From Candidatus Flavonifractor intestinipullorum (GTDB lineage: Bacteria; Bacillota; Clostridia; Oscillospirales; Oscillospiraceae), in the NCBI GenBank assembly GCA_019118925.1, contig DWYC01000088.1, positions 1-64,000 of the forward strand: 64,000 nt of DNA, read 5' to 3'. The position numbers and the translations under genes were made by a program. A model generated the notes under the pieces. It saw only the letters and a list, made by a program, of their open reading frames with translations, did not search any database and was not told where the DNA came from. Of this stretch, positions 14,628 through 63,798 are shown piece by piece; the first letter of the stretch is position 1, and every line of letters starts with the position of its first letter.

Positions 14628-14641
14628 GGAGGTGACTGACG

Positions 14642-18949: not shown

Positions 18950-18962
18950 GCTTCCGCCTCCC

Positions 18963-19796: not shown

Positions 19797-19811
19797 TGCT
19801 TCTCCTCCCCG

Positions 19812-20759: not shown

Positions 20760-20814
20760 AGATGTCCTTCCTCCTTGTGGAAAAAATAACCCGGCGCAGC
20801 GCCGTACCGGGGAA

Positions 20815-20842
20815 GGCAGGGGAAGCCGCGGCCTCCCCTGCC
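20815..20842 (-). terminator. Attenuating hairpin between binding-protein and permease genes
   Basis: GGCAGGGGA and TCCCCTGCC pair around a GC-rich centre. No T-run follows on the minus strand, so it probably works as an mRNA-stabilising 3' hairpin or partial terminator, a common arrangement after solute-binding protein genes. Confidence 0.45.
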
Positions 20843-20858
20843 CTAAAAAGCTATGAAT

Positions 20859-47739: not shown

Positions 47740-47890
47740 AATCCGTAACCTCCTCAGAAGGGGAGAACCCCTTTTTTTCATTGTATCCTGTTTTCCCCCG
47801 GCATGCAAGAGGGCGGGACGCTTTTCTCTCCGGGAGAATTCCGTCACAGCTGCCAGACGAGGAACATAGGATACTCCGGAGGTCATGCCT

Positions 47891-48857: not shown

Positions 48858-49871
48858 ATGAAACGCGATATGAAACAGTGGATGAAAGACGTCGTCGACG
48901 CGCCCGTAAAGCGGGCGGTTCCCGTCCTGTCCTTTCCGGCGATCCAGCTCATGGGGATCACGGTCCGGGAGCTCATCTCCAGCAGCGACGCCCAGGCCAA
49001 GGGCATGAAAATGGTGGCCGACCGGGTGCCGACCGGCGCTTCGGTGAGCCTGATGGACCTGTCGGTAGAGGCCGAGTGCTTCGGCTCTCAGATCCGCTTC
49101 TCCGATGACGAGGTGCCCACCGTGGTTGGCTCGGTGGTCTCCTCTCTGGAGGAAGTGGAGGCCCTTTCCGTTCCCGCGGTGGGCGCGGGCCGCACGGGCA
49201 TTTACATTGAGGCCATCCAGAAGGCGGTGGACCTGATTCAGGACCGCCCGGTTTTTGCCGGTGTGATCGGCCCCTTCTCCCTGGCCGGCCGTCTGATGGA
49301 CGTGACCGAGGCCATGATCTACTGCTATGAGGAGCCCGAGATGGTGGCCGCCCTGCTGGACAAGGTCACCGACTTCCTCATCGCCTACTGCAAGGCCTAC
49401 AAAGAGGTGGGGGCCAACGGCGTGGTGATGGCCGAGCCTCTGGCCGGCCTGCTCTCGCCCGCTCTGGCCGAGGAGTTCTCCGCTCCCTACGTCAAGCGGG
49501 TGGTGGACGCCGTTCAGGACGACAACTTCTCGGTGGTCTACCACAACTGCGGCAACGCCGCCATCCAGATGATCGACTCCATTCTGGGCACCGGCGCGGC
49601 CATGTACCACTTCGGCAACGCCATCTCCATGAAGGAGATGCTCCAGCACATCCCCGCCGGTACCATCGCCATGGGCAACGTGGACCCCGCCGGGCAGCTG
49701 CGCAACGGGACGCCTGAGTCCGTCCGGGCCGAGACCCTGCGCATCATGGGCGAGTGCTGCGACCACCCCAACTTCGTCATCTCCTCCGGCTGCGACATCC
49801 CGCCCATGTCCCCCTGGGAGAACATCGACGCCTTCTTCCAGGCGGTGGACGAGTTCTATCAGAAGAAGTAA
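48858..49871 (+). CDS. UroD-family corrinoid methyltransferase (MtaA/MtbA-like)
   Basis: The 337-residue TIM-barrel protein belongs to the uroporphyrinogen decarboxylase (URO-D) family, methylcobamide methyltransferase branch. Zinc ligands of that branch are in place: His and Cys in VVYHNCGNAAIQ (about 233-235) and the distal Cys in VISSGCDIPPMSP (about 313). These proteins transfer a methyl group between a corrinoid protein and a thiol or similar acceptor. A corrinoid protein gene lies directly downstream on the opposite strand, and the reactivase RACo follows. Clostridia of this kind are not known to make coenzyme M, so the acceptor or donor is unclear. It stands alone with a terminator after it. 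Confidence 0.85.
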   Translation: MKRDMKQWMKDVVDAPVKRAVPVLSFPAIQLMGITVRELISSSDAQAKGMKMVADRVPTGASVSLMDLSVEAECFGSQIRFSDDEVPTVVGSVVSSLEEVEALSVPAVGAGRTGIYIEAIQKAVDLIQDRPVFAGVIGPFSLAGRLMDVTEAMIYCYEEPEMVAALLDKVTDFLIAYCKAYKEVGANGVVMAEPLAGLLSPALAEEFSAPYVKRVVDAVQDDNFSVVYHNCGNAAIQMIDSILGTGAAMYHFGNAISMKEMLQHIPAGTIAMGNVDPAGQLRNGTPESVRAETLRIMGECCDHPNFVISSGCDIPPMSPWENIDAFFQAVDEFYQKK

Positions 49872-49914
49872 TTTTAACCAGATATCTCCTCTCTTCACTC
49901 TACCCCTATCCCGC

Positions 49915-49950
49915 ACACCGGCCGCCTGAACAGGCGGCCGGTGTGTCCTT
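49915..49950 (+). terminator. Terminator of the methyltransferase gene
   Basis: ACACCGGCCGCCTG / CAGGCGGCCGGTGT with an AA loop, followed by GTCCTTTTC. Confidence 0.75.
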
Positions 49951-49963
49951 TTCGAAGGGATAA

Positions 49964-49998
49964 AAAAACCGGCCCGGACACTTGTCCGGGCCGGTTTT
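49964..49998 (-). terminator. Terminator of the corrinoid-protein operon
   Basis: AAAACCGGCCCGGAC and its complement flank a 5-base loop. Either strand would give a T-run, so it can serve both convergent genes. Confidence 0.8.
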
Positions 49999-50015
49999 AT
50001 GCCTGAGGAAAGCGA

Positions 50016-50654
50016 TCAGGCCACGCAGAAGGAAAGGGCGGCCGCAGCAGCGGCGGTGGCGTCGGGGGTGTAGCAATCGGCGCCGATGGACTCGGCAAAG
50101 CTCTCGGTGACGGGGGCGCCGCCCACCATGATCTTGACCTTGCCGTTGAGATCGGACTGATGCACGGCGTCCACCACGGTCTTCATCTCGCCCATGGTGG
50201 TCGTCAGCAGGGCGGAGCAGGCGATGATCTTGGCGTTGTGCTCCTTGGCCGCGTCGATGAACGCGGAGGCGGGCACGTCCACGCCCAGGTCCACCACTTT
50301 CAGGCCCTTGCCCTCCATCATCATGCGCACCAGGTTCTTGCCGATGTCGTGCAGGTCGCCCTTCACGGTGCCCAGAATGACGGTGCCCTTCTCCTCCACA
50401 CCGGCGGCCACCAGCAGGGGACGCAGGACGGTAATGCCCTTGTTCATGGCCCGGGCGGCCACCAGAACCTCGGGCACAAAGACCTCGTTGTTCTTGAACT
50501 TGCCGCCGATGATGTTCATACCGGCCAGCAGGCCGTCCTCCAGAATCTCCTGGGGAGAGATGCCCTCGTCCACGGCCTGCTGTACCAGTTCCTTGACCTT
50601 GGGGGCCTTACCGGCCTGCAGATAGGTGCTGATCTCGTTGAGAATTTCGCTCAT
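50016..50654 (-). CDS. Corrinoid (B12-binding) methyl-carrier protein
   Basis: The 212-residue protein carries a methyl-cobamide between methyltransferases. It has the N-terminal four-helix cap domain (about 1-85: EGISPQEILEDGLLAGMNIIGGKF, VFVPEVLVAARAMNKG) and the Rossmann-like B12 domain with the base-off His motif DLHDIGKNLV (about 105), the LGVDVPA turn, SALLTTTMGEMK and the GGAPVTESFA loop. This is the MtaC/MtbC/MttC-like architecture. It is cotranscribed with RACo, 32 bases downstream of that gene, and presumably serves the UroD-type methyltransferases in the region. Confidence 0.93.
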   Translation of the reverse strand: MSEILNEISTYLQAGKAPKVKELVQQAVDEGISPQEILEDGLLAGMNIIGGKFKNNEVFVPEVLVAARAMNKGITVLRPLLVAAGVEEKGTVILGTVKGDLHDIGKNLVRMMMEGKGLKVVDLGVDVPASAFIDAAKEHNAKIIACSALLTTTMGEMKTVVDAVHQSDLNGKVKIMVGGAPVTESFAESIGADCYTPDATAAAAAALSFCVA

Positions 50655-50686
50655 CGTTCTCGACTCCTTTTTTATGATATATTTGG

Positions 50687-52222
50687 TTAAGATTCGGATG
50701 CAAAGAGCATGTGCTCCATGTAGTACTCGGAAAACAGACGGTTACCCGACAGGGGAATCTCTCTGGCCCGGCTCCGAATGGCCGAGAGGGTGTCCAGAAA
50801 CGCCTCATCCAGCAGTACCGCCGCCGCGCCGGCCAGGGCCGCGTTGCCCAGCACCCGGGCCCGGGGGGCCAGAACAGGGGGGAAGAGCCCAATGCGGGCG
50901 GCGCTGTCCCGATTCATATGGTGCCCAAACCCGCCGGCAATATAGAGGCGGTCCACTTCTTCCGGCGTCAGACCGGCCTCTTCCAGCAGCGTGCAGATGC
51001 CGGCGCACACGGCGGCTTTGGCCAACTGAATCTGGCGAATGTCCTTTTGTGTAAGAAAGACCTGCGTACCCGGGATTTGCCAGGCAGAGAGCTCCTCCCG
51101 CTGGGTGATGCCGGGCGCCTCGTCGTCCAAAAGGCCCGTCTCATCCATGATCCCCAGCTCCAGCAGAGCGGCCGCTGCGTCCAGCACGCCCGAGCCGCAC
51201 AGACCTTCCGCCGCTCCGCTGCCCAGGACCTCCACGGTGACCCCGCCCCGGCCGTCGGGCCGGATGGCGGTAATGGCGCCGGGAGCGGCCTGCATCCCGC
51301 AGGAGAGGCCCGCGCCTTCAAAGGCCGGGCCCATGGCGGTGGAGGCGCAGTAGAGCGTCCCGCCGTGGGCGAGCACAATCTCGCCGTTGGTACCCAAATC
51401 GATGAGTAAAGCGGTCTCCTCCGGATGGTCCATCAGTCCGGAGGCCAGGACAGCGCAGGTGATATCGGCCCCCACATAAGCGCCCAGACAGGGCGGGAGA
51501 TAGGGGGGGACGCCGCCGAGCGTACAGGCGCCGGGTCCGCCGAAGAGGGAGACCGGGACAAACGGGGCCACCGCGATGCCGCGGGGGTCCAGCCCCTCCC
51601 AGAAGTGGAGCATCGTAGTGTTGCCGGTGACCACCGCACAGTCGAGGGCGGAAACGCCGGCCTGGGCCATGCAGGAGGCGGCCATGCGCTCCAGCTGCTG
51701 GTGAATGCACTCCGTCAGGGGAGCGACCCCGTGCTGATTGGAGTGCTCGATGCGGGAGATCACATCGGCCCCGAAACCGGCCTGCTCGTTGGCGCCCAGG
51801 GCCTCCCCGTAAATCCGGCCGTCCTCCAGCCGGTAGAGCTGTGCGGCCACGGTGGTGGTACCGATGTCCACCGCCAGTCCCCAGCCCTTTTTGCGCAGGG
51901 TATGGGCGGGGAGAACTACGGCGGACAGGGTGTCGACCTCTTGCTCAGGCAGCCACACCGACGCATCGCCCAAAACCTGGACATAGCAGGCCAGACGAAT
52001 GCCCTGCGAACGCTCCTCCGGAGAGAGACGTTCCGCCTCCTCCGCGCAGGGAGGGGCGAGCTGCCCGGCACAGCGCACCTTACACTTGCCGCAGGTGTGG
52101 TTGCCGCCGCAGGGCATCGGAAAGGGGAGCCCGGCCTCCAGCAGGAGGGAGCGCAGAGACGGCCGGCCCGAGAAGGTCCGCTGTATTTGCTCGCAGCCGC
52201 GATAGAACGTGATAACCGACAT
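50687..52222 (-). CDS. Reductive activator of corrinoid proteins (RACo-like; 2Fe-2S and ASKHA domains)
   Basis: The 511-residue protein restores inactivated cob(II)alamin on corrinoid methyl carriers in an ATP-dependent reduction. The N-terminal plant-type 2Fe-2S domain has PCGGNHTCGKCKVRC (about 37-50) and a fourth Cys in RLACYVQVLG. A linker is followed by the ASKHA ATPase domain (DUF4445/RACo C-terminal) with GLAVDIGTTTVAAQLY, IDLGTNGEIVL and the C-terminal DRLYIAGGFGHHM. Its operon partner is the corrinoid protein, as in the O-demethylase and methylamine systems. A single reactivase would serve all corrinoid steps here. Confidence 0.92.
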   Translation of the reverse strand: MSVITFYRGCEQIQRTFSGRPSLRSLLLEAGLPFPMPCGGNHTCGKCKVRCAGQLAPPCAEEAERLSPEERSQGIRLACYVQVLGDASVWLPEQEVDTLSAVVLPAHTLRKKGWGLAVDIGTTTVAAQLYRLEDGRIYGEALGANEQAGFGADVISRIEHSNQHGVAPLTECIHQQLERMAASCMAQAGVSALDCAVVTGNTTMLHFWEGLDPRGIAVAPFVPVSLFGGPGACTLGGVPPYLPPCLGAYVGADITCAVLASGLMDHPEETALLIDLGTNGEIVLAHGGTLYCASTAMGPAFEGAGLSCGMQAAPGAITAIRPDGRGGVTVEVLGSGAAEGLCGSGVLDAAAALLELGIMDETGLLDDEAPGITQREELSAWQIPGTQVFLTQKDIRQIQLAKAAVCAGICTLLEEAGLTPEEVDRLYIAGGFGHHMNRDSAARIGLFPPVLAPRARVLGNAALAGAAAVLLDEAFLDTLSAIRSRAREIPLSGNRLFSEYYMEHMLFASES

Positions 52223-52390
52223 AGTTCCCTCCCACTCCTTTTTCTAGTATCATAAAGCGAGTTTCCCATTTTGTCATCCTATTTTGATGAAGTGCACAAT
52301 AATTTTCAAAAAAACACAAAATAGTTCTAAAAAATCACGAGGGCGGTATGGTATGATAGAGGAGCATTAAAGGGGAGGGAAGGGACGGCT

Positions 52391-52406
52391 TTGACTGCGC
52401 AGTCAA
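52391..52406. promoter_or_regulatory. Perfect palindrome at the end of the DUF2284 gene
   Basis: TTGACTGCGCAGTCAA, a perfect 16-base palindrome that includes the stop codon of the minus-strand gene. It has no loop, so it looks more like a protein-binding site than a terminator. No ligand or regulator is identified. Confidence 0.35.
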
Positions 52407-52963
52407 TTACCGGGCTTCCCCAGAAGCACCGCCCCGAAATAGGTCACGGTGTTCACCCCGTTGATGTAGCGCATCCCGCACAGCCCGGCCAGTCGGGAGA
52501 CGTCGATGCAGTAGCCCTCCAGAGAGGCCATGGCCTCCTCCGGGAACCGGCAGGCCTCTCCCGTGCGTTTGGCGCACACGGCACAGCGGCGGCAGCCGCC
52601 CGCCCCCAGCTGGAGAAAACCGGACACCCCACGCTCCTGCAGCAGGACGCGGATGTCCCGGGCCAGGCGGTTCTGCCGTTCTCCTGCGGCCAGCATCCCT
52701 TCGATGTCAAAACTGTCCTCCAGAGAAGAGATGGTCTGGTAGACGAGAACCTGATCGTAGGACCGGGCCCGGGCGATCAGATCGGGGGCCTCTCCCACAT
52801 CGGGAGGACACATCCAGCACTGCCCATACATCCCGCAGGCGTTGGAGCGGCACATCTCCCGAAAGGAGAGATCAAAGGGAATCTCGCCCACGGGCAGGAA
52901 CGCCGCCGCCTCCGCGCCCAGAGTCCGCACCGCCTGCAGCAGCGCTTCCGGCTGGAAATTCAT
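52403..52963 (-). CDS. DUF2284-family Cys-rich metal-binding protein
   Basis: The 186-residue predicted metal- or iron-sulfur-binding protein matches the DUF2284 pattern: MCRSNACGMYGQCWMCPP near residue 40 and the second cluster GAGGCRRCAVCAKRTGEACRFPEEAM near 125, followed by GYCIDVSRLAGLCGM. Such genes often neighbour corrinoid or radical-SAM methyl-transfer loci, but their function is not established. ATG 52963 has AAGGAG ahead and is chosen over the longer frame. It is divergent from the PocR/AraC regulator gene, so it may be part of that regulon. Confidence 0.82.
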   Translation of the reverse strand: MNFQPEALLQAVRTLGAEAAAFLPVGEIPFDLSFREMCRSNACGMYGQCWMCPPDVGEAPDLIARARSYDQVLVYQTISSLEDSFDIEGMLAAGERQNRLARDIRVLLQERGVSGFLQLGAGGCRRCAVCAKRTGEACRFPEEAMASLEGYCIDVSRLAGLCGMRYINGVNTVTYFGAVLLGKPGN

Positions 52964-53164
52964 GGCACTCACTCCTTGCATTTTTCTCTCCATGACACCG
53001 CAGTCATCTTGCATTGAAACGGATTTTCCTGTAGAATAAGGGAAAGAAACGATGTCGCGGATATCCCGACCTTTATTATACCGGAAGCCGTGCCGGATCT
53101 CTTATAAAAAATCCACTTATTTCGCAAAGTTTTGCCCGGATCCGGCCAGGAGAGAGGAGCGACC

Positions 53165-54436
53165 ATGAGACCGCGGGAAGAATTTGATGTGGTGCTGTCC
53201 AAGGACTGCGCCCGGGCTTTTTCCACTTCCACCGGTCTGGGGAGCGTGGTCTCACTGGCCGACGGAGCGCCGCTGGCCGCGTTTGGCGGCTACCACTGCG
53301 AAAACTGCCGGATCTGCGCCCTGGCGGGAAAGCAGCGCACCCTGTGCGTACAGAGCCATATTTACGGCATGAACGAGGCCGAGCGCTTCGGCGGGAAATA
53401 CGTCTATTTCTGTCCCATGGGGCTGACCTGCTTTACCTCCCCCATTGTGGGCACCGACAGCACGGAGGCCAAAATCACGGTGGGGCCCTTCTTGATGGTG
53501 GACCGGCAGGACTACATTCACGACGATCTGCTGCCCAAGATCCAGGGGGAGTATGACCTGGCGGAACTCACCGCCGAAGTGGAGAAGCTCCCGGTGGTCC
53601 CGGCCGCCCGGGTGGAGGGTATTTCCTCCCTCCTGTTCATGGCGGTGGGCTTTATGAACAACGTCTGGGCGGCCAACCACATGCTGGAGGTGCAGGAGTC
53701 CTACTCCATCCAGAAGCAGGTCTCCTCCTATCTGGCCACGTTAAAAGGCGAAAAGCAGCCGCCGCCCTATCCTCTGGACCTGGAGAACGAGCTGCTGGAC
53801 AGCATCAGCCACCTGGACCGGGAGAAGGCCAACCGCTGCCTCAACGAGCTTTTGGGCTATATCTTTTTTATGGGCGGCAATTTTCAGTTGGCCAAATCCC
53901 GCATTTCCGAGCTGCTGGTGCTCATCTCCCGGGCGGCCATCACCGGCGGGGCCGACGCACAGACCATGCTCCTCATGACCCACGACTATTTGCAGATCAT
54001 TCCCCGCATCACCAGCATGGACGAGCTGTGCAGCTGGCTGGCCAAGGCCATGAACCGCTTTATGGACAACCTCTTCCAGTTTGCCGATGTGAAGCACGCC
54101 AATGTGATTCACCACGCCACCCAGTACATCCGCGCCCACTACGCCGAAAAAATTACGCTGGACAACGTGGCCCGGGAGGTCTATCTCTCGCCCACCTACT
54201 TCAGCCGCATTTTCCGGCAGGAGACGGGGGTGACCTTCAACGCCTACCTCAACGCCGTGCGCATTGAGCAGAGCAAAAAGCTCCTCAACGACCCCTCCGT
54301 GCGGCTCATCGACATCTCTCTGATGGTGGGCTTTGACAACCAGAGCTATTTTACCAAGGTGTTTAAGAAAATCACCGGCCTTTCCCCGCTGCAATACCGG
54401 GAAAAGAAGTGCAAAGGCTTTCAGCATATCAATTGA
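53165..54436 (+). CDS. PocR-domain AraC-family transcriptional regulator
   Basis: The 423-residue activator has an N-terminal PocR sensory domain (about 1-160) with the conserved Cys/His set HCENCRICAL...CVQSHIYG...YFCPMGLTCFTSPI, a central helical region, and a C-terminal AraC HTH pair (about 320-418: ITLDNVAREVYLSPTYFSRIFRQETGVTFNAYL, DISLMVGFDNQSYFTKVFKKITGLSPLQYR). PocR domains sense small metabolites and are typical next to corrinoid methyltransferase and diol-use operons. It lies between DUF2284 and a UroD-family gene and probably activates this methyl-transfer locus. ATG 53165 follows GAGGAG. Confidence 0.92.
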   Translation: MRPREEFDVVLSKDCARAFSTSTGLGSVVSLADGAPLAAFGGYHCENCRICALAGKQRTLCVQSHIYGMNEAERFGGKYVYFCPMGLTCFTSPIVGTDSTEAKITVGPFLMVDRQDYIHDDLLPKIQGEYDLAELTAEVEKLPVVPAARVEGISSLLFMAVGFMNNVWAANHMLEVQESYSIQKQVSSYLATLKGEKQPPPYPLDLENELLDSISHLDREKANRCLNELLGYIFFMGGNFQLAKSRISELLVLISRAAITGGADAQTMLLMTHDYLQIIPRITSMDELCSWLAKAMNRFMDNLFQFADVKHANVIHHATQYIRAHYAEKITLDNVAREVYLSPTYFSRIFRQETGVTFNAYLNAVRIEQSKKLLNDPSVRLIDISLMVGFDNQSYFTKVFKKITGLSPLQYREKKCKGFQHIN

Positions 54437-54504
54437 CCCATTGTTTGTCATAAAATCAGCCTGAGATTCCGATCCGGGCGCCAAAAAGAAAGGAAGTCTG
54501 AATC

Positions 54505-55539
54505 ATGTCCACCCTGAAAGAACGTAACGCGGAACGCCTGAGAAAGAGCATCGCCGGAGAGAAGGCGGACGGCCACGCCGTATTCAACTACTACACCTAC
54601 CCCTTCTTCCACGCGGTGAGCAAAGTGCCCCTGAACGAGTACTTCCACAACCCCAAGGTCATGTTCGAGACCCAGCTGGAGGTCTTGGAGCAGCTGGACG
54701 GCTGCGGCAACCTGGCCCCCGACGCCGGCGCCGTGGCCGAGTGCAGCGCCCTGGGCGGCAAGGTCCGTTTCGACGAGCACGGCTTCATCTCGGTGGCCCC
54801 CGCCGAGATTGAGGAGCTGGACGACGTGCTGGCCATCAAGCCCGGCGACCCCTATGGGGACAACTATATGCGCATCGCGCTGGAGACCCTGGAGTACATG
54901 GTGGACCACTGCCCCGAGGGCTACAAGGTCAACCCCCACGCCATCATGGGCCCCTTCACCGTGGGCGCCCAGCTGCGGGGCATCAGCGACTTCTGCGCCG
55001 ACACCATTGCCGAGCCTGAGCTGGTGCAGGCCATCCTGGACCTGGTCATCGAGACCCAGATCAACTTCCTGAAGGCGCAGGAGAAGATTTTGGGCGAGCC
55101 CCTGCACCACATCCTGGTGTGCGACGACCTGTCCGCCTTCCTCAGCGAGCAGGCCTATCGGGACATCATCCTGCCCTCCTATGAGAAGCTCTTTGCCGAG
55201 TTCCCCCATACTCAGCGCTGGCTCCACAACGACTCCACCGCCCGCCACATCGCCCCGGACATCTCCAAGGGCGGCATGGTGGCCTGGCAGTATCATCCCA
55301 GCATCACGCCTCAGGACGCCCTGACTCTGACCGAGGGCAAGGTCACCCTGCTGGGCGGCCTGAACCCGGTGGAGCTGGCCGGCCTCACCGAGGAGGAGAC
55401 CGTGAAGAAGTGCAACGAGGTCATCGACTCCTTCGGCGGCAACAACCGCTGCGTGCTGGCCGCCGGCGGCTCCATCAACCAGGTGCCGCTGGTCAACCTG
55501 CGGGCCATGTTCCGCGTGGCCGACGAGCGGAAGATCTAA
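54505..55539 (+). CDS. UroD-family protein lacking the zinc cysteines
   Basis: The 344-residue TIM-barrel protein is of the URO-D superfamily, related to corrinoid methyltransferases (GYKVNPHAIMGPFTVGAQLRGISDF, CDDLSAFLSEQAYRDIILPSYEKLF). At the place of the usual HxC zinc ligands it reads RWLHNDSTARH (Asp for Cys). The distal stretch is VLAAGGSINQVPL without Cys. It therefore cannot use the MtaA-type zinc-thiolate site. It may act on a non-thiol acceptor or donor, as proposed for some demethylating members of this superfamily. It follows the PocR regulator gene at 68 bases and ends at a strong terminator. Confidence 0.82.
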   Translation: MSTLKERNAERLRKSIAGEKADGHAVFNYYTYPFFHAVSKVPLNEYFHNPKVMFETQLEVLEQLDGCGNLAPDAGAVAECSALGGKVRFDEHGFISVAPAEIEELDDVLAIKPGDPYGDNYMRIALETLEYMVDHCPEGYKVNPHAIMGPFTVGAQLRGISDFCADTIAEPELVQAILDLVIETQINFLKAQEKILGEPLHHILVCDDLSAFLSEQAYRDIILPSYEKLFAEFPHTQRWLHNDSTARHIAPDISKGGMVAWQYHPSITPQDALTLTEGKVTLLGGLNPVELAGLTEEETVKKCNEVIDSFGGNNRCVLAAGGSINQVPLVNLRAMFRVADERKI

Positions 55540-55572
55540 GCCTCCGCCCGCTCCGGGTCAACGGCAAAACAG

Positions 55573-55605
55573 CGCCCCTGCCGCTTCAAGCGGCAGGGGC
55601 GTTTT
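55573..55605. terminator. Bidirectional terminator
   Basis: CGCCCCTGCCGCTT / AAGCGGCAGGGGCG with a 1-base loop, followed by TTTT. On the minus strand it gives CTGTTTTGC. It separates convergent genes. Confidence 0.88.
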
Positions 55606-55638
55606 GACGCCTCAGAGGCGCGGAGAAGCCGGAGAGGG

Positions 55639-56190
55639 TTATTCCTGCCCTTCCGGTCCGGCGGGCTGGGAGGGCGTCTGAACGGCCAGCAGAGCGTCGT
55701 GGCTGCGGACCAGCCACTCCTCGGTGATGCGCCAGCGGCCCTCGACCTTCTCCACCCGGCACTCGCACATGGAGAAACACTTTTTGCCGTCCTCGGCCAG
55801 AGACTTGCCGGTGGGAGGGCCGTAGGCGGTCCAGCCGGTGTTGCGCCAGGAGAAATTGGTGCACTGGCCGAAGCTGTACCCGTCCTCCTCGTTGCCCTCG
55901 GCGAAGATGTCCACAAACTCCACCGTCTGGTCGGGGAAGGAGCGGATAGTGGACAGGGTAGCCGCCACCGAGGCCTCGGCGCCCACGCTGTCCCCGTCGC
56001 AGCTGTGCACCACCGTGGAGTCGCAGTAGAACTCATAGATGGCGCCGATGCACTTGTACTGCCAGATCCACTCGGTGTAGGCCTTGAAGAGCTCGGCCAC
56101 CTCCTCGGGGAATTGCAGCTTGCACTGGCGGCAGAACTCCGCCACTTTTTTGCGGCCCTCGCTCATGTCGTGGAGCGTCATCTGAATCAT
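55639..56190 (-). CDS. NTF2/SnoaL-like protein A
   Basis: The 183-residue protein has the cone-shaped alpha+beta fold of the NTF2/SnoaL superfamily. It shares three motifs with the other five domains of the region: CIGAIYEFYCDSTVV (about 46), SFPDQTVEFVDIFAEG (about 84) and YGPPTGKSLAE (about 122), ending WRITEEWLVRSHD. Members act as cyclases, isomerases, dehydratases, hydrolases or ligand binders, and the reaction here is unknown. It starts with ATG overlapping the stop of the preceding gene by four bases (coupled pair). An AAGGAGG ribosome site supports ATG 56190. Confidence 0.78.
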   Translation of the reverse strand: MIQMTLHDMSEGRKKVAEFCRQCKLQFPEEVAELFKAYTEWIWQYKCIGAIYEFYCDSTVVHSCDGDSVGAEASVAATLSTIRSFPDQTVEFVDIFAEGNEEDGYSFGQCTNFSWRNTGWTAYGPPTGKSLAEDGKKCFSMCECRVEKVEGRWRITEEWLVRSHDALLAVQTPSQPAGPEGQE

Positions 56191-56717: not shown

Positions 56718-56745
56718 GCAAACACCTCATTTCAAATGGATGAAT

Positions 56746-56781
56746 AAAAAGCGGGCCGCATATCAAGGGATATGCGGCCCG
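56746..56781 (-). terminator. Terminator of the permease/symporter operon
   Basis: On the minus strand CGGGCCGCATATC / GATATGCGGCCCG with a 4-base loop, followed by CTTTTTATT. Confidence 0.85.
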
Positions 56782-56801
56782 TTCGAGAAAAACAGTCTGG
56801 A

Positions 56802-58478
56802 TTACTTCTTGGCCTTGGCGGGGCTCATGTTCTCACGGATCCAGGCGGAGACGCGGCCGCGGACAAAGAAGTCCTCGAACACGCCCTGCTGGGCGGTATG
56901 CTCCGCATACCACTTCTTCTCGGTGAGGAGGGAGACCACGACCACGGTGATGATGCCGCAGAAGATGGCGGGGAAGCCCAGGAAGAAGCCGCCCCAGACA
57001 TAGCGCACGCCGGCGGCGTACAGGCCCAGGTACACGGCCTCGCCCACGAGCATGCTGGCGACAGCGCCCTGGGGAGTGGCCTTCTTCCAGAACAGGCCGG
57101 CCACGATGGTGGGAGTAACCAGCACCATGCCGTTGGTGGCCATATCGGTCAGGAGGGTCAGCAGAGGCAGCTCGGTGGTGGCGAAGCAGAAGCCGATGAT
57201 GCCCAGGATGACCACGATGACACGGGTACGGAACACTTCCTGCTTGGCGTGAGCCTCAACGCGGTTGTCGATGGTGTCCAGGCTGGCGCCGCCGTCGGCG
57301 CCGATGGTGGGCTCACCCTTCTTCAGGCGCAGCATGTTGGTGAGCAGGTCGTTGGACACCAGGCCGGACAGGGAGATCAGCGTGGAGTCCAGGGTGCCCA
57401 GAGCGGCAGCCAGGATGAAGGTGCAGACGATGCCCAGCATGATGGGGCTGCCCGCCATGGAGCACAGCTCCAGAATACCGGCCTCGGGGTTGGAGACGGT
57501 CACGCCCTTGGCCACGGCGCCCAGAACGACGACGCCGAAAAGGCCGTAGATGCTCAGCCAGATGCCGGAGGCGGCGGTGGCGATGGAGGACTTCTTAACC
57601 TCGCGCACGTTCTTGGCCAGGCAGATGCTCATGAAGTTGGAGGGGTAGACCAGCATAACCAGGGTGCCCAGAATGACGTTGGAGACCCAGTAGGGAATGT
57701 TGAAGTCGCCCACGTTCTCCAGGACGTAAATCTGCTCCTGGGTCTGACCGGCATACAGAGTCTGAGCGGCCTGATCGGCGGAGTGGAACATATCGCCGAC
57801 ACTGCCGTCGAAGTAGTAGCCGACCAGATAGCCCAGCACCACCAGGGAGCCGCCCAGCATAACGATAGCCGAGAAGCTGTCCACCATGGACACCGAGTGC
57901 ACGCCGCCGGTGGCCACATAGATGATGATGATGGTGAAGGCGATGGCGGAGCCCACGATGACGGGCATGGTGTCGCCGGAGGCCAGGTTCATGGCGATAC
58001 CCAGAGTACGGATCTCGGTGATGAGCCAGATGATGTTGAAGCAGACAATGATCAGAGACACAAAGAACTTCACCCAGCGGCTCTGATACCGCAGCTCCAT
58101 GATGTCGGGCAGGGTGGAGAGGCGGTACTTCTTGGCCAGGGGCCAGATCTTCTCGCTCAGGAAGAACATCACCATACCGGTGGCGGCACAGGTGACCACC
58201 GAGTTCAGGCCGGCCACGCCGTAGTTGTAGAAGAAGCCGACGCGTCCGGTGAAGGTGGTGCCGGAGTAGAACGTAACACAAGTAATCAGGAAGACCACCA
58301 CGGCGTTGCGGGACTTGCCGCCGGTGAGGTAATCCTCAAAGGTCTGGTTTTTCTTACGCTCGATTGCCTTTTTGGAGAAGCCCTGATACCAGGCCATCCA
58401 GATGACAACGGCGATATAGGCCAGCATGATAATAAACGGAATTGGGCTTTGAATCAGTTCAGCCTGCATTGCATTCAT
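56802..58478 (-). CDS. Sodium:solute symporter (SSF) family transporter
   Basis: The 558-residue polytopic protein has about 13 membrane helices. SSF features are YLTGGKSRNAVVVFLITCVTFYSGTTFTGRVGFFYNYGVAGL near the N-terminus and RYQSRWVKFFVSLIIVCFNIIWLITEIRTLG. The Na2-site-like Ser/Thr segment is LAAALGTLDSTLISLSGLVSNDL. The family takes up sugars, carboxylates, amino acids, pantothenate or betaines with sodium. A small two-helix protein precedes it, as YhdT precedes PanF. It is last in the operon that begins with an EutH-like permease. Substrate unknown. Confidence 0.92.
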   Translation of the reverse strand: MNAMQAELIQSPIPFIIMLAYIAVVIWMAWYQGFSKKAIERKKNQTFEDYLTGGKSRNAVVVFLITCVTFYSGTTFTGRVGFFYNYGVAGLNSVVTCAATGMVMFFLSEKIWPLAKKYRLSTLPDIMELRYQSRWVKFFVSLIIVCFNIIWLITEIRTLGIAMNLASGDTMPVIVGSAIAFTIIIIYVATGGVHSVSMVDSFSAIVMLGGSLVVLGYLVGYYFDGSVGDMFHSADQAAQTLYAGQTQEQIYVLENVGDFNIPYWVSNVILGTLVMLVYPSNFMSICLAKNVREVKKSSIATAASGIWLSIYGLFGVVVLGAVAKGVTVSNPEAGILELCSMAGSPIMLGIVCTFILAAALGTLDSTLISLSGLVSNDLLTNMLRLKKGEPTIGADGGASLDTIDNRVEAHAKQEVFRTRVIVVILGIIGFCFATTELPLLTLLTDMATNGMVLVTPTIVAGLFWKKATPQGAVASMLVGEAVYLGLYAAGVRYVWGGFFLGFPAIFCGIITVVVVSLLTEKKWYAEHTAQQGVFEDFFVRGRVSAWIRENMSPAKAKK

Positions 58479-58504
58479 TGCGTGTTCCCTCCCTCTTTCT
58501 TAAA

Positions 58505-58711
58505 TTAGTCGAAGGTATTGTCGTTGCGCTCCCACCAGAAGAGGAACCAGGTGAGACCCACCAGAAGAGCACCGATGACCCAGATACCTACAAAGAAGCA
58601 GGGGAACGGGCCGATGTACCCCTCGCGGTTCCACACATTCATCAGAGGGGGAATTACGCCGCAGCCGAACAGGTAGGTAATGGCCAGAAGTACAGTAATA
58701 ACCTTACGCAT
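58505..58711 (-). CDS. Small membrane protein, symporter accessory (68 aa)
   Basis: The 68-residue protein has two predicted membrane helices (about 5-25 and 38-60) and a charged C-terminus (WWERNDNTFD). Small proteins of this size and topology (DUF3311/YhdT-like) are often encoded directly before SSF transporters and are thought to form a complex with them. It starts 55 bases after the NTF2-like gene and ends 26 bases before the symporter start, so it is cotranscribed. A GGAGAT ribosome site precedes ATG 58711. Confidence 0.8.
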   Translation of the reverse strand: MRKVITVLLAITYLFGCGVIPPLMNVWNREGYIGPFPCFFVGIWVIGALLVGLTWFLFWWERNDNTFD

Positions 58712-58766
58712 GAGTGATATCTCCTTTCTTCGCTCTTATCGATGTGCTGCGGGAGCTCGAATCAGA

Positions 58767-59312
58767 TCACTCCAGGAGACGGCGGTAGGCATCGTTGCTG
58801 CGGATGCTCGCCTCCTTCCCCACGCGCCACTTGCCGTCGATGAACTGAATCCAGCACTCGCACATCTCCAAATCCTCATAGGGCTCGAAGCTCAGGTCTT
58901 TGCCGGCGCCGTGGGGGCCTACGCCGCCCTTGCCGCAGCCGGTGTTGTAAACGACCTGGCCGAACCGGTAATTGTCGCCGTCCCGGACACAGTGAATGTC
59001 CACAAACTCCACATTCAGGTCGGGGAACTGGGCCAGGGAGCGCAGGGTGTCCCAGACCACGTGATCGGAGCCCTCCAGATTGGCGCCGCCGTCCCGCTCT
59101 TCCTTCAGACCGTCGAAGTAGAAGTCGTAGACACGGCCCACCTGCTTGTGCTTCCAGATCAGCATGGTGTAGGCCTCGAACAGGTCGGCGATCTCCTGGG
59201 GCTCTTTATAGGTGCAGTTGCGGATGACATCCTCGTAGAGGGCGCGCTCGGCCATGATCTCATCTACGGTCATCTCCGTGATTTTCTTATTCTCGGTGAT
59301 ATTGGGCAGCAT
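58767..59312 (-). CDS. NTF2/SnoaL-like protein C
   Basis: The 181-residue protein has the region's shared motifs: QVGRVYDFYFDGLKEERDGG, QFPDLNVEFVDIHCVRDGDN and GPHGAGKDLSFEP, with the C-terminal WRVGKEASIRSNDAYRRLLE. The TGK triplet of the relatives is AGK here. Helices in the first 50 residues include IADLFEAYTMLIWKHK, which parallels VAELFKAYTEWIWQYK of protein A; this shows common descent. It is encoded between another NTF2-like gene and the small membrane protein in the permease/symporter operon. Confidence 0.78.
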   Translation of the reverse strand: MLPNITENKKITEMTVDEIMAERALYEDVIRNCTYKEPQEIADLFEAYTMLIWKHKQVGRVYDFYFDGLKEERDGGANLEGSDHVVWDTLRSLAQFPDLNVEFVDIHCVRDGDNYRFGQVVYNTGCGKGGVGPHGAGKDLSFEPYEDLEMCECWIQFIDGKWRVGKEASIRSNDAYRRLLE

Positions 59313-59361
59313 AGGATGTTACCTACCTTTCTTCCGTCAAATTTGAAATGATATGCAGCGC

Positions 59362-59880
59362 TTACTCCTGCTCGGGCTTGCAGGCGGCCTTGATGCACTC
59401 CATGCTGTACATGGTGAACTCCCGCACGATGCGCCAGGTGCCGTTGATCTTGCGCACGGTGGCCATGCTCATGGTGATGCACTCCTCGGGCTTGAGCGCG
59501 CGCATGGTGGCGGGGCCGTAAATGCTCTGATTGCGGTTCGTGCCCTCCATGGTGTAGTACTGCCACACCTTGTACTCGTCGCCCTTCTTCACGGCGAAGT
59601 AGTCCCGCATGTGGATCTTCAGATCGGGGAACGCGGCGGTGAACTTCAGGGCCTCCTGCATGATGGCGTGGGCCCCCTCGTAGGCGTCGCCGTTTTCCCG
59701 GCGGAGCACTGCGTCGTCGGCGTAGATATCGTAAACGCTGCCGATCCACTTGTGGTTGTAGATCAGCTCTTTGTAAAGGCGGAAGTACTCCGCGATGGAC
59801 GCCTCGTCGGTCAGCTCCATGGACTTGACCTTCTCGTTCACTTCCATCATCTCGTTGTAAAGCCGGTCTGCCTTATACAT
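59362..59880 (-). CDS. NTF2/SnoaL-like protein D
   Basis: This 172-residue paralogue has WIGSVYDIYADDAVLRRENG, AAFPDLKIHMRDYFAVKKGD and IYGPATMRALKPEE at the shared motif positions, ending WRIVREFTMYSME. The TGK triplet is replaced by TMR, so it is the most divergent domain and may have lost or changed a ligand contact. AGGAGG precedes ATG 59880. It is the second gene of the operon, after the EutH-like permease. Confidence 0.78.
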   Translation of the reverse strand: MYKADRLYNEMMEVNEKVKSMELTDEASIAEYFRLYKELIYNHKWIGSVYDIYADDAVLRRENGDAYEGAHAIMQEALKFTAAFPDLKIHMRDYFAVKKGDEYKVWQYYTMEGTNRNQSIYGPATMRALKPEECITMSMATVRKINGTWRIVREFTMYSMECIKAACKPEQE

Positions 59881-59934
59881 TGCGCCATGACCTCCTAGAA
59901 AAAATAAGTTTTCATTTTATCTCAATGGCTGCGC

Positions 59935-61044
59935 TCAACCATCGATTCGGGGGGAAGCTGCGGGGACGTTCGAATTGCGCAGGCGCTCCTGAATCAGGAC
60001 GATGGCCACGCCGCACGCACCGGCGGAAAGTTTGGCCACAATCATGGGGACAATCATATCCGGGCGCACGCCGGCGGTGTAACCCAGGTGATCGCCCAGA
60101 GCCGCGCCCACGGTGATGGCCCAGACGGTATTGATGATCGTGCCTTTTCGATCCATGTCTTTGATCATCGTAAAGACGGGGACCGAGTTGGCCAGAGCGA
60201 AAATCAGACCGGCTGTACTGGTGGAGTCGAGGACCATGTGCCTTCCGGCCGCCTTCAAGGGCCTGTCCAGCACCTTGAGCAGGATGGACAGCACCGGGAA
60301 CGTGCCCGCCAGGACAAGGGCAATGTGGCCCACCGTGGACATGGCCTCCGAGATGGGGGTCATGCCCGGGAGAATGACGGCGCCGGTGATGGCCTCAAAC
60401 CCCGCGCAGATCAGTCCGAAGTAGATGAGGGCGGTTACCGCCCGGCCGAACCACAGGGAACCGGTCACCATGGCGTTGGGGGCCAGACGCAGGCCGATGG
60501 CCAGCAGAACAGAGATGACAATGATGGGAACCATGTTGCGGAGAATAAACAGGAAGGGGAAGCCGGCCACCAGACCGCCGAGGATGCTGCCGATGGGGGT
60601 GACGATAAAACCGATCAGCAGGCCCTGTGCGAACCAGGGGTGCTTCTCCTTGGGGATAATGCCCAGCCCCACCGGGATATGAAAGACCAGAATCACGCCG
60701 AACATGGAGGCCACGATGGCGCCGCTGAGAAGTCCGGCCCGCTCGTCCACTGCCAGTTCCATTGCCAGGTCGTAGCCGCCCATATCGTTGGCCAGGATAG
60801 CGCCGAACATACCCGGGTCCACGCCGATGGCCTGAAAGAACGGGGTGATAACGGGGCCCAGGTACCGGCCGATCAGAGGAGTCAGACAGATGATACCCGC
60901 CATGCCCAGGGCCAGGGTACCCATGGCCTGGAAGCCCTCCTCAAACTTGGGCGCCAGGCCCAGCTTTCCACCGAAAATTTTGTCGAGGCCGCCCAAAATA
61001 AACCCCACGGCAACAATCCAAAGGATGATCTGATCCAGAGACAT
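59935..61044 (-). CDS. EutH-like permease
   Basis: The 369-residue membrane protein has about ten helices and EutH-family features: ILGGLDKIFGGKLGLAPKFEEGFQAMGTLALGMAGI at the start, AILANDMGGYDLAMELA near 85, GSILGGLVAGFPF, and IFALANSVPVFTMIKDMDRKGTIINTVWAITVGAALGDHLGY. EutH carries ethanolamine in the eut pathway. No other eut gene is seen here, so the substrate may be a related amine or alcohol. It is the first gene of a five-gene operon (permease, two NTF2-like, small protein, symporter) behind a sigma-54 promoter. Confidence 0.85.
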   Translation of the reverse strand: MSLDQIILWIVAVGFILGGLDKIFGGKLGLAPKFEEGFQAMGTLALGMAGIICLTPLIGRYLGPVITPFFQAIGVDPGMFGAILANDMGGYDLAMELAVDERAGLLSGAIVASMFGVILVFHIPVGLGIIPKEKHPWFAQGLLIGFIVTPIGSILGGLVAGFPFLFILRNMVPIIVISVLLAIGLRLAPNAMVTGSLWFGRAVTALIYFGLICAGFEAITGAVILPGMTPISEAMSTVGHIALVLAGTFPVLSILLKVLDRPLKAAGRHMVLDSTSTAGLIFALANSVPVFTMIKDMDRKGTIINTVWAITVGAALGDHLGYTAGVRPDMIVPMIVAKLSAGACGVAIVLIQERLRNSNVPAASPRIDG

Positions 61045-61123
61045 GAATCTCAGCGCTCCTTAACCAAAATGGCCGCGTCAGCCGCAAGCCATCCTGCGGA
61101 CGCGTCGTGTGTCTAATTATTTC

Positions 61124-61139
61124 TGCAACTCTCATGCCA
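61124..61139 (-). promoter_or_regulatory. Sigma-54 (-24/-12) promoter
   Basis: On the minus strand TGGCATGAGAGTTGCA, which fits TGGCAYG-N4-TTGCA at every defined position and has the required GG-to-GC distance. It lies 80 bases before the EutH-like gene. Sigma-54 promoters need an ATP-driven activator, none of which is encoded in the window. Confidence 0.75.
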
Positions 61140-61161
61140 AAACAATTACAAATCGGGAACG

Positions 61162-61199
61162 TTTGAAGAATAAAGACAACATTTGAAGAATAAAGACAA
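61162..61199. repeat. Two 18-base direct repeats upstream of the sigma-54 promoter
   Basis: TTTGAAGAATAAAGACAA occurs twice with a 20-base period (nearly two helical turns). The position, 23-60 bases upstream of the -24 element, suggests binding sites for an activator or repressor. Confidence 0.75.
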
Positions 61200-61244
61200 A
61201 AATAATACAAAAAAAGCAGGAAAATTTTCAATGAGATCGGCAAT

Positions 61245-61484
61245 ATGAAAAATAGAAATCACTTTTTCTCCGCCGCTTGCAGCGGGAATTTTTCGCGGCG
61301 GGCAGCGTCAATTTTGTTGCGTATGAGCATCGGTTGTTGTCCTGATGCAACGATCCGGGGGCAAACGGCGCAGAAAAGACAGGTACTATCATACATAATT
61401 TCGGAACAAATGTAAAATTAAAAAACTGGAAAGTCCGAAGAAAATGAAAATTTTTTCAAAAAGCGGCCGATTTTATGGAAAAAA
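61245..61484. other. AT-rich intergenic stretch with inverted repeats
   Basis: No gene. It contains a GC-rich imperfect stem (CCGCCGCTTGCAGCGG...CGCGGCGGGC, 61271-61303). A second inverted repeat has a GCATC / GATGC core flanked by GTTGC / GCAAC (about 61317-61357). Either could be an activator site for the sigma-54 promoter or an RNA hairpin; I cannot decide. Confidence 0.4.
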
Positions 61485-61513
61485 TGGACAAGACAAACCG
61501 GTTCTGATACAAT
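61485..61513 (+). promoter_or_regulatory. Promoter of the LacI-family gene
   Basis: TGGACA, 17 bases, TACAAT, 47 bases before ATG 61560. A palindrome AACCGGTT lies inside the spacer and could be an autoregulatory site. Confidence 0.6.
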
Positions 61514-61559
61514 AGAAACCAAAGAGACCGTACATTCGAAACGAGGAAGGTGAGGGGTT

Positions 61560-62615
61560 ATGGCAGAAAGAGGGCACCGGAACAGCGGCGTGACAGCCAC
61601 CGACGTGGCCCGGCGAGCGGGCGTGTCTCAATCGACCGTCTCCCGGGTGTTGAATCCAAATGGAAAGGTAAAGGTCCAGGAAGAGGCCCGGCAGCGGGTG
61701 CTCCAGGCGGCCCGGGAGCTGGGATACCGCCCCAACGCCATCGCGCAGACGATGATCTCCGGCCGTTCCAAAATTGTGGGGGTGGTGGTGTCCGACTACT
61801 TCAACGTCTTTTACTACCAGATGCTCCAGCTGCTGACCAACCGTCTGATGGCTGCGGGACTCCAGGCCATGGTGTTCTCCTCGCCGCCCCGGTCGGACAT
61901 CAACGAGCTGCTCCAGCGCTTCTACCGCTATCAGGTGGACGGGGTGATTGTGACCTCCTCGGCGCTCTCCCACCATGTGACCGAACAGGGCATCCAGAGG
62001 GGGGTGCCGGTGGTGCTCATCAATGGATATTTGCCGGATATGGGGGTCAACGCTGTGCAGAGCGACCAGTTCGGCAGCGGTATCCTTATGGCGGACTACC
62101 TGGTGGGGGTAGGACACCGGCGCTTCGCCTATGTGAGCTCCGAGAACAGCCCCCACCGCAACTACATGCCCCGGCAGGAGGGCTTCCTGGAGGGCCTGCG
62201 CCGCCACGGCGTGGATACCTGCCGGGTGATTCCCGGGGGATACAGCTACCAAAGCGGCCTGGAGGTGGGGGAGAGCCTGGCCCGGGAGGCGGACATGCCC
62301 GACGCCATTTTCTGCTCCGGCGACTGGAACGCCATGGGCGTTCTGGACGCCCTGCGGCGGCACTCCCGGCGGGAGATCGGACGGGAGGTCTCGGTCACCG
62401 GCTATGACACCCCGATCCTCACGGGGCTGGAGGCCTATTCCATCACCGGCCTGACCCAGGACATGGACGGCCTGTGCAGCGACGCGGTAGAGCTGCTGGA
62501 AACGCTGATGGAGGACCCGGAGAGACCGCCGCAGCTTCTGACCCGGCCCATGCATTTGACGATTCGTTCTTCGTCCCGCCCGCTTCCCCGGGAAATGGAG
62601 CAGAAAAAGGGCTGA
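61560..62615 (+). CDS. LacI-family transcriptional regulator
   Basis: The 351-residue regulator has an N-terminal LacI HTH and hinge (about 10-60: VTATDVARRAGVSQSTVSRVLNPNGKVKVQEEARQRVLQAARELGYRPNAIAQTM) and a periplasmic-binding-protein-like effector domain (KIVGVVVSDYFNVFYYQML, DGVIVTSS, DYLVGVGHRRFAYVSSENSPHR, DAIFCSGDWNAMGVLDALR). The effector is probably the substrate of the neighbouring catabolic locus. A 12-base palindrome in the next promoter is a likely target. GAGGGGT-type ribosome site precedes ATG 61560. Confidence 0.93.
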   Translation: MAERGHRNSGVTATDVARRAGVSQSTVSRVLNPNGKVKVQEEARQRVLQAARELGYRPNAIAQTMISGRSKIVGVVVSDYFNVFYYQMLQLLTNRLMAAGLQAMVFSSPPRSDINELLQRFYRYQVDGVIVTSSALSHHVTEQGIQRGVPVVLINGYLPDMGVNAVQSDQFGSGILMADYLVGVGHRRFAYVSSENSPHRNYMPRQEGFLEGLRRHGVDTCRVIPGGYSYQSGLEVGESLAREADMPDAIFCSGDWNAMGVLDALRRHSRREIGREVSVTGYDTPILTGLEAYSITGLTQDMDGLCSDAVELLETLMEDPERPPQLLTRPMHLTIRSSSRPLPREMEQKKG

Positions 62616-62622
62616 TTTGCTC

Positions 62623-62651
62623 TTGACAGTGGGCAGGAAAGGGCGTATGAT
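62623..62651 (+). promoter_or_regulatory. Promoter of the double NTF2-like gene
   Basis: TTGACA, 17 bases, TATGAT, only 8 bases after the LacI gene stop. A strong sigma-70-type promoter. Confidence 0.75.
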
Positions 62652-62668
62652 GAGAGTATCTCAGATAA

Positions 62669-62680
62669 GAATACGTATTC
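62669..62680 (+). promoter_or_regulatory. Candidate LacI-type operator
   Basis: GAATACGTATTC, a perfect 12-base palindrome with the central CG usual for LacI-family operators, just downstream of the -10 and start site. It is well placed for repression by the LacI-family protein encoded upstream. Confidence 0.6.
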
Positions 62681-62706
62681 ACACAATTTAGTTGGAGGTG
62701 CCTCTC

Positions 62707-63798
62707 ATGGATGATGTGAAGATCTATTATGGCGATCAGTCTCAAGTCAACCCGCTGGGCCGCCGGAATTATGACGAATACCTGACTTATACCGAGAAGA
62801 AACAGGAGCTGCCCGGATTTGACCGGGAGTATCTGGACATTGTAGACTATATTATCAAGATCACGCACCGGATCTGGGAGGAGAAGGGCGTGGGCATCAT
62901 TTACGACACCTATGCCAACAACTGTGTGGTCCATACGGGCGACGGCGCTTCGGTGGGCTCGCAAAACGTGGTGTCCAATACGCTCTCGATGCTCCACGCG
63001 TTCCCGGACCGCCGCTCCATGGCGGAGGACGTCATCTGGTCGGAGGACACGCCGGGCGTGTTCCTCTCGTCCCATCGGATTCTCTCCACGGCCACCAATC
63101 TGGGCGAGAGCAATTTCGGCCCGGCCACCGGGAAGAAGGTCTATTTCCGCACCATCGCCGACTGTGCCTGCACGGAGAATCTGATTTTTGAGGAATGGCT
63201 GGTACGGGACAACCTCTGGCTGGTCAAGCAGCTGGGCCTGGACCCCTGGGCTCTGGCCCGGCAGATGGCCGCGGGCCAGAGCGCGAAAGCGCCCGCCGGC
63301 CGGGACGAGTGCATGGAGGGGCAGTTCCTGCCCGAAGTGTATACCGCCAAGGATGATTCGGTGGGCGAGCAGCTGCTGGAGGCCCTCAACGACATCTATA
63401 ACCGCAAGCTGATTAACCGGGTGTGCGATCTGTACGCCGGAAACGCAGTGGTCCACACCGTCTGCAATCAGGATCTGGTGGGGCACGACGAGATTCAGGG
63501 GTCCATTGTGAGCCTGCTGGCCTCCTTCCCCAACAGCCGCCTGCTGGTGGACCGGGTCACCTGTAACTACCATGAGGAGGACAGCTCCTGGCACGTCTCG
63601 GCCCGCTGGCGCCTGCGGGGCCTGCACGAGGGCATCGGCCGCTTCGGCGCCCCCACCGGCAAGCAGGTGGACATTCTGGGCATTACCCAATACCGCTTTG
63701 TCCAGGGCAAAGTAGTGGAGGCCTGGGAGCTCTATGACGGACTGGATGTGCTCCGGCAGCTCTGCCTGGGGGACGGGCATCCCGCCGAGGAGATCTGA
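62707..63798 (+). CDS. Double-domain NTF2/SnoaL-like protein
   Basis: The 363-residue protein contains two tandem NTF2/SnoaL domains. The first (about 35-190) has GVGIIYDTYANNCVVHTGDG, AFPDRRSMAEDVIW and NFGPATGKKVYFR. The second (about 225-355) has INRVCDLYAGNAVVHTV, SFPNSRLLVDRVTC and RFGAPTGKQVDILGI. Both keep the TGK motif seen in proteins A and B. Short proteins A-D would need to dimerise to reach the same two-domain unit. ATG 62707 follows GGAGGTG; the track's TTG start is rejected. Probably an enzyme of, or binding protein for, the compound handled by the locus. Confidence 0.82.
   Translation: MDDVKIYYGDQSQVNPLGRRNYDEYLTYTEKKQELPGFDREYLDIVDYIIKITHRIWEEKGVGIIYDTYANNCVVHTGDGASVGSQNVVSNTLSMLHAFPDRRSMAEDVIWSEDTPGVFLSSHRILSTATNLGESNFGPATGKKVYFRTIADCACTENLIFEEWLVRDNLWLVKQLGLDPWALARQMAAGQSAKAPAGRDECMEGQFLPEVYTAKDDSVGEQLLEALNDIYNRKLINRVCDLYAGNAVVHTVCNQDLVGHDEIQGSIVSLLASFPNSRLLVDRVTCNYHEEDSSWHVSARWRLRGLHEGIGRFGAPTGKQVDILGITQYRFVQGKVVEAWELYDGLDVLRQLCLGDGHPAEEI

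Follow-up and report, generated by a model that had tools for sequence, protein, structure and literature searches.

The region at 48858-63798 of contig DWYC01000088.1 (Candidatus Flavonifractor intestinipullorum, assembly GCA_019118925.1) raises the question of whether its genes for corrinoid-dependent methyl transfer, and the genes for NTF2-like proteins and transporters that follow them, form a single catabolic locus, as the initial annotation had proposed. The window analysed was the initial 64 kb (64,000 nucleotides) of this 91.7 kb contig (C61), taken from an assembly of 2.25 Mb that is 81% complete. All of the genes named in the proposal were confirmed, with weak SnoaL matches for two of them (55639-56190 and 56187-56717), and a third-position GC of about 0.79-0.93 backed the chosen reading frames. 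By Pfam, the methyl-transfer half (48858-55539) encodes two UroD-fold proteins (UroD1 and UroD2), a corrinoid protein, the reductive activase RACo, a DUF2284 protein and a PocR-type regulator, and the other half (55639-63798) encodes two NTF2-like pairs, a LacI regulator, a fused NTF2 tandem and the transporters, here specified as a sodium:solute symporter (SSF) and EutH. The reading favoured, at a probability of about 0.5, is that the bacterium degrades an O-methylated ring polyol, or a compound resembling a sugar acid, anaerobically, and that the window holds the parts of this system concerned with uptake, demethylation and the NTF2 proteins. The sequence itself shows which gene families are present, that they repeatedly cluster with each other and that they cluster with a catabolic block; from these we infer mechanism, substrate and NTF2 chemistry. 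Two UROD genes and one corrinoid methyl-carrier gene were detected in the 2.25 Mb searched, all of them within the window; as these are the sole such genes detected and their grouping recurs elsewhere, their co-occurrence goes beyond chance. The locus is, however, not a single operon. UroD1 lies on the plus strand, DUF2284, RACo and the corrinoid protein on the minus strand, and PocR and UroD2 on the plus strand, followed by EutH, NTF2b, NTF2a, SSF, NTF2d and NTF2c (minus) and LacI and the tandem NTF2 gene (plus). This layout makes the two halves separate transcription units, with at least five units across both. UroD2, which had been described as abutting the first NTF2 pair, is indeed only 100 bp from it, but the two are convergent.

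Whether the halves are separated in relatives was checked by comparative genomics. Of the seven genomes with a UroD2 orthologue, five have an NTF2 pair no more than 11 kb from UroD2, namely the window's genome (G000), G327, an Oscillibacter metagenome-assembled genome (MAG; G328), a Dysosmobacter MAG (G329) and G330, and the corrinoid protein was equally near in three of six (G000, G328 and G329). In the cultured strain Butyricicoccus pullicaecorum DSM 23266 (G326), however, the NTF2/SSF, UroD2 and corrinoid genes are split over three contigs (C15, C21 and C22, respectively), the corrinoid protein being 74% identical to that of the window. The fullest grouping was seen in G329, where 19 kb contain UroD2, PocR, the corrinoid protein, UroD1, two NTF2 pairs, a GldA-like dehydrogenase, a TRAP transporter, EutH and catabolic genes. 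G328 carries the same gene set plus RACo, with UroD1 not on that contig. The UroD2-NTF2d-NTF2c neighbourhood of the window is repeated in G327, where UroD2 directly adjoins the NTF2 pair, and in both G327 and G330 UroD2, NTF2 genes and catabolic genes stand together. Genes of the NTF2a type were confined to the window's genome among 400 genomes of the family and were found in 3 of 295 genomes of the order, one of these being a weak match; a search of an 85,000-genome collection, which requires exact peptide seeds and so gives a lower bound, returned at least nine convincing loci. As the locus is both rare and patchy, this distribution suggests horizontal transfer.

In relatives, the locus adds the TRAP transporter, the GldA-like dehydrogenase, relatives of IolM, IolN and IolB, an HpaI-type aldolase and, in some, a 4-hydroxybutyryl-CoA dehydratase. 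The order in G329 is HpcH aldolase, SerA-like, IolB-like and UlaG-like proteins, a zinc-dependent alcohol dehydrogenase (Zn-ADH) and a creatininase-family protein, then EutH, NTF2b, NTF2a, TRAP, GldA and an NTF2 pair. The genome of the window has its catabolic block on another contig, C94, together with an NTF2 pair of its own, and the identities of the C94 orthologues were 86% (creatininase), 77% (Zn-ADH and IolB-like), 69% (HpcH), 62% (SerA-like) and 58% (UlaG-like). Adjoining these on C94 are genes for a 4-hydroxybutyryl-CoA dehydratase, a CoA-transferase, an acyl-CoA dehydrogenase, electron-transfer flavoprotein (Etf) and the NTF2 pair. The dehydratase (P0024) matched the solved enzyme 1u8v at 2.7e-231 and retains the Fe-S ligands (CxxxC at 100 and the H292-x6-C299 spacing); it is regarded as a true 4-hydroxybutyryl-CoA dehydratase. 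A separate, full-length classical iolD was present in four of the six genomes checked, so the locus probably encodes something other than the ordinary inositol pathway, and myo-inositol alone was set aside as the substrate on these grounds. A link between UroD and classical iol genes in G330 was also rejected, since an unrelated gene intervenes on the contig that they share.

Three defining parts of a corrinoid demethylase are present in the window: UroD-type candidates for the substrate-specific methyltransferase (MT-I), a stand-alone corrinoid carrier and a reductive activase; the usual second methyltransferase (MT-II) was not found. UroD1 (48858-49871, plus strand; PF01208, 1.7e-58) is MtaA/MtbA-like and is the proposed second methyltransferase. 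It has a zinc-type H-N-C...C motif (H229, C231 and C312, the HNC being located by script), a best NCBIfam match, under cut-off, to a methylcobalamin:coenzyme M methyltransferase, and MtbA (4ay7, 9e-19) as its nearest solved structure. UroD2 (54505-55539, plus strand; PF01208, 1.6e-27) lacks the zinc motif, has a conserved HND at the position of the UroD1 HNC, and is the proposed MT-I. Its orthologues are 45-90% identical and adjoin catabolic genes; among the 60 genomes of a relatives search, matches outside its own genome were distant only (best 28% identity). A different zinc motif, E-x14-E-x20-H, occurs in some O-demethylases and was found in neither UroD1 nor UroD2. The corrinoid protein (50016-50654, minus strand, 212 aa; PF02607, B12-binding_2, and PF02310, B12-binding) is the only stand-alone one in the assembly, and its best NCBIfam model, MtgC-type, scored under cut-off. 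RACo (50687-52222, minus strand; PF14574 1.8e-68, PF17651 and PF00111) combines 2Fe-2S and ASKHA parts. The DUF2284 gene (52403-53014, minus strand; PF10050, 3.8e-42) encodes a predicted metal-binding protein, and the AraC-type regulator with a PocR sensor (53132-54436, plus strand; PF10114 and PF12833) lies upstream of UroD2 on the same strand, with relatives 80% identical in G329 and 61% in G328.

The NTF2-like genes sort by alignment into two classes, a (subtypes a and c) and b (subtypes b and d), and the tandem gene (62692-63798, plus strand; PF07366, 2.3e-29, two stretches; a 76% identical orthologue in B. pullicaecorum) is a fusion of two such domains. Subtypes c (55639-56190) and d (56187-56717), both on the minus strand and with weak SnoaL matches supplemented by alignments, overlap by 4 bp. 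Subtype a (58767-59312, minus strand) has no Pfam match, aligns with the other NTF2 genes and gave an AlphaFold2 model with an NTF2 fold (predicted local distance difference test score, pLDDT, 89.6); subtype b (59362-59880, minus strand; PF07366, 1.8e-7) was modelled at pLDDT 95.1. Partners were on one strand in all 16 of 16 pairs, usually overlapping (often by 4 bp) or almost touching, and their distance matrices correlate (r 0.887, Mantel p 5e-5), a value to which common ancestry contributes. NTF2a is 97% identical between the window's genome and B. pullicaecorum, although synonymous sites are close to saturation (dN/dS 0.008). Both models adopt the NTF2 fold, and SnoaL-type cyclases resemble them most (Z 15-18), followed by ketosteroid isomerase (KSI) and limonene epoxide hydrolase; matches included 3kkg (Z 17.8, 141 residues aligned, root-mean-square deviation (rmsd) 3.4) and the SnoaL2 structure 8r2e (Z 16.9, 128 aligned, rmsd 1.9). 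With regard to the catalytic residues of SnoaL, KSI and LinA, neither the a-class nor the b-class alignment has an invariant His/Asp dyad. The proteins are probably heterodimeric a/b SnoaL-like enzymes, and it is possible that they process the demethylated product. Further a/b pairs were seen on contig C88 of the window's genome (L042, 2091-3223), away from other catabolic genes, and, far outside the gut Clostridia, in Peribacillus simplex (L050, 8382-9537), where the pair adjoins another SnoaL-like gene.

Both transporters are positioned among the NTF2 genes. The SSF gene (56802-58478, minus strand; PF00474, 2.1e-23) has an 81% identical counterpart adjoining the NTF2 pair of B. pullicaecorum, and the gene for the EutH-family permease (59935-61044, minus strand; PF04346, 5e-119) leads the minus-strand NTF2/SSF run and adjoins NTF2 genes in G328, G329 and G330. 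Divergent from this run is the LacI-family regulator (61560-62615, plus strand; PF00356/PF13377), a 52% identical paralogue of which adjoins the NTF2 pair on C94. A palindrome resembling a LacI operator, ATGATAACGTTATCAT, recurs near LacI genes that neighbour NTF2 or UroD2 genes on C94 (L043; 15374, 15438, 15499 and 16629) and on contig C21 of B. pullicaecorum (L064; 10206 and 11325), and is likely to be a LacI operator. It was not found upstream of the window genes; a regulon shared through LacI is therefore unsupported and was dropped.

On the favoured reading, EutH and SSF, with TRAP in relatives, would import the O-methylated ring polyol or sugar-acid-like compound, and UroD2 would transfer its methyl group to the Co(I) corrinoid protein, which RACo would re-reduce when inactivated. 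UroD1, through its zinc motif, would hand the methyl group to a thiol or other acceptor. Breakdown of the demethylated product would then begin with its oxidation by the IolM-like dehydrogenase; the IolN-like hydrolase would open the oxidised compound, the IolB-like protein isomerise it and the HpaI-like aldolase cleave it. Part of the carbon would pass by CoA transfer and 4-hydroxybutyryl-CoA dehydratase towards crotonyl-CoA and butyrate. The NTF2 a/b heterodimers would most likely carry out a SnoaL/KSI-like enolisation, isomerisation or elimination on a keto intermediate. A wider proposal is put forward only tentatively and its full form is doubtful: a dispersed yet recurrent Oscillospirales pathway, in which O-methylated ring polyols (pinitol-like) or methylated carbocycles would be demethylated by a zinc-free UroD, the methyl group passed on without a folate methyltransferase, and the ring fermented towards butyrate via heterodimeric NTF2 proteins, IolM/N/B-like enzymes and 4-hydroxybutyryl-CoA dehydratase. 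A literature search on a creatininase/inositol/butyrate link, or on pinitol demethylation by gut bacteria, yielded nothing usable.

Several observations weigh against the demethylation reading. UroD2 is a methyltransferase by prediction, its activity being one that we infer, and its identity to UroD1 is only about 18%. The folate-type second methyltransferase (PF00809) was undetected in G000, G328, G329 and G330 (four of the six locus genomes) and MtrH (PF02007) in all six genomes searched, negatives that for G000 rest on the 81% complete assembly. This leaves UroD1 as the one apparent candidate for the second methyl transfer; its acceptor may be a thiol, as has been suggested for mlp clusters. 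The best NCBIfam matches in the G329 block (IolN, IolM, IolB and HpaI/GarL) all fell under cut-off, at 159 vs 245 bits for IolN and 217 vs 450 bits for IolM, and the C94 enzymes are related to the curated inositol families without belonging to them. The 4-hydroxybutyryl-CoA step is no simple consequence of a C6 cyclitol, and EutH is known for ethanolamine. Furthermore, the corrinoid protein lies apart from the NTF2 genes in G326, G327 and G330, and in G563 UroD2 stands with TRAP and LacI genes and has no NTF2 match. The initial proposal has partial support: a single catabolic system is backed by the grouping in G327, G328 and G329, while the separations in G326, G327 and G330 and the NTF2 pairs with no adjacent UroD gene agree in part with the condition set for its refutation. 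The stable unit is UroD2 with the catabolic block, the corrinoid carrier being an accessory that moves more readily.

This scatter would also be explained if two independent modules merely adjoined, one for methyl transfer (possibly methyl-sulfur/methionine salvage or methoxy-aromatics) and the other a separate NTF2/EutH/SSF locus, as the three-contig arrangement in B. pullicaecorum, the separate transcription units with different regulators (PocR vs LacI) and the NTF2 pairs that lack an adjacent UroD gene (contigs C88 and C94 of the window's genome, Peribacillus and L051) would suggest. This is considered unlikely, given the UroD2-NTF2 grouping in five of seven genomes, the gene order repeated in G327, and the single cluster shared by EutH, NTF2 and corrinoid genes in G328 and G329. 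Alternatively, UroD2 could be another UroD-fold enzyme of the same pathway, such as a decarboxylase or lyase, with the corrinoid genes serving another substrate; this would account for its missing zinc motif and for its position beside TRAP/catabolic genes with no corrinoid gene nearby in G326, G330 and G563. It too is doubtful, however, as a methyl-carrier corrinoid protein was present in all six UroD2 genomes searched, and MT-I enzymes of the UroD type without zinc are already known (CdmB and MtvB; PMC13222342). An improbable third option is a quinate/shikimate-type C7 hydroaromatic or related carbocyclic acid, which an HpaI-type aldolase would convert to pyruvate and succinate semialdehyde and thence to 4-hydroxybutyryl-CoA. 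The aldolase does have HpaI as one of its best matches, the block includes a genuine 4-hydroxybutyryl-CoA dehydratase, and TRAP transporters usually carry acids, but the dehydrogenase and hydrolase best match inositol enzymes and the methyl group would be left unexplained. N-demethylation of an ethanolamine-, choline- or betaine-type substrate appears very unlikely: EutH, the top score of the corrinoid protein (the betaine MtgC model) and a GrdE/GrdB reductase pair about 11 kb past the window would favour it, but no MttB/MtgB-type methyltransferase and no ethanolamine lyase (EutBC) was present among the genes scanned at 46.4-63.8 kb, the remaining genome not having been searched for EutBC, and it is disfavoured because the recurring partner genes are inositol-, cyclitol- or sugar-acid-like and the methyltransferases of the UroD type. 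Methoxy-aromatics were disfavoured, the locus having shown genes for aromatic degradation in none of the relatives.

Other features of the contig were also recorded. The GrdE-like and GrdB-like genes (L024, 75104-77721 of C61), recognised by eye, the GrdB-like one having an in-frame TGA (probable selenocysteine), are followed from about 78 kb by probable prophage genes. Within the window, 47885-48658 encodes a BclA-like collagen-repeat protein, under the Pfam cut-off and typical of spore formers. At 7486-16150, a c-di-GMP-I riboswitch precedes a gene resembling signal peptidases and several short genes for secreted proteins that look like TasA/camelysin on visual inspection; c-di-GMP may here control an operon for surface fibres. 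A lysine riboswitch (22685-22853) is followed by solute-binding protein and ABC transporter genes (16977-22853, minus strand).

According to a 2025 review, how gut bacteria such as Dysosmobacter welbionis turn myo-inositol into butyrate has yet to be characterised; the review also notes that Butyricicoccus rises when phytate is converted to butyrate (PMC12482443). The locus, present in the Dysosmobacter MAG and B. pullicaecorum DSM 23266, offers a defined set of genes for a related route that would use ring polyols or methylated compounds, and a paired NTF2 family without an assigned role gains a candidate enzymatic one. Like the UroD-type MT-I O-demethylase and chloromethane systems (MtvB, OdmB, VdmB, MtoB and CdmBCA), the window encodes a UroD methyltransferase, corrinoid protein and ATP-dependent activase together; unlike them, its genome has no detected PF00809 and instead a second UroD protein, and the locus is coupled to NTF2 pairs and EutH/SSF, and in relatives to inositol-like catabolic genes. 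With the Type 1 mlp clusters described by Kountz and Balskus (PMC10418091) it shares an MtaA-like protein, a corrinoid protein, an activase and the lack of a folate methyltransferase. Those clusters, however, have at least two MtaA-like proteins in one direction, whereas strands differ in the window and only UroD1 is MtaA-like, UroD2 being distant from MtaA/MtbA, so that the locus falls outside the Type 1 definition. The linked block resembles the Thermotoga-type inositol pathway, as cited in PMC3750489 from Rodionova et al. (2013), in its IolM-like dehydrogenase and IolN-like creatininase-family hydrolase, but adds an IolB-like isomerase, an aldolase, 4-hydroxybutyryl-CoA dehydratase and NTF2 pairs, with scores under cut-offs. 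The NTF2 proteins share fold and length with the SnoaL, KSI and limonene epoxide hydrolase enzymes, but differ in identity (about 20% or less among the matches listed), in their obligate two-subtype gene pairs and in lacking a fully conserved His/Asp in invariant columns. In function, the locus would be most like a corrinoid demethylation system feeding ring-polyol or sugar-acid catabolism, and the recurrence of probable demethylation genes and NTF2 pairs beside inositol-like genes in several relatives suggests that methylated ring polyols or comparable plant compounds are degraded by a pathway yet to be characterised.

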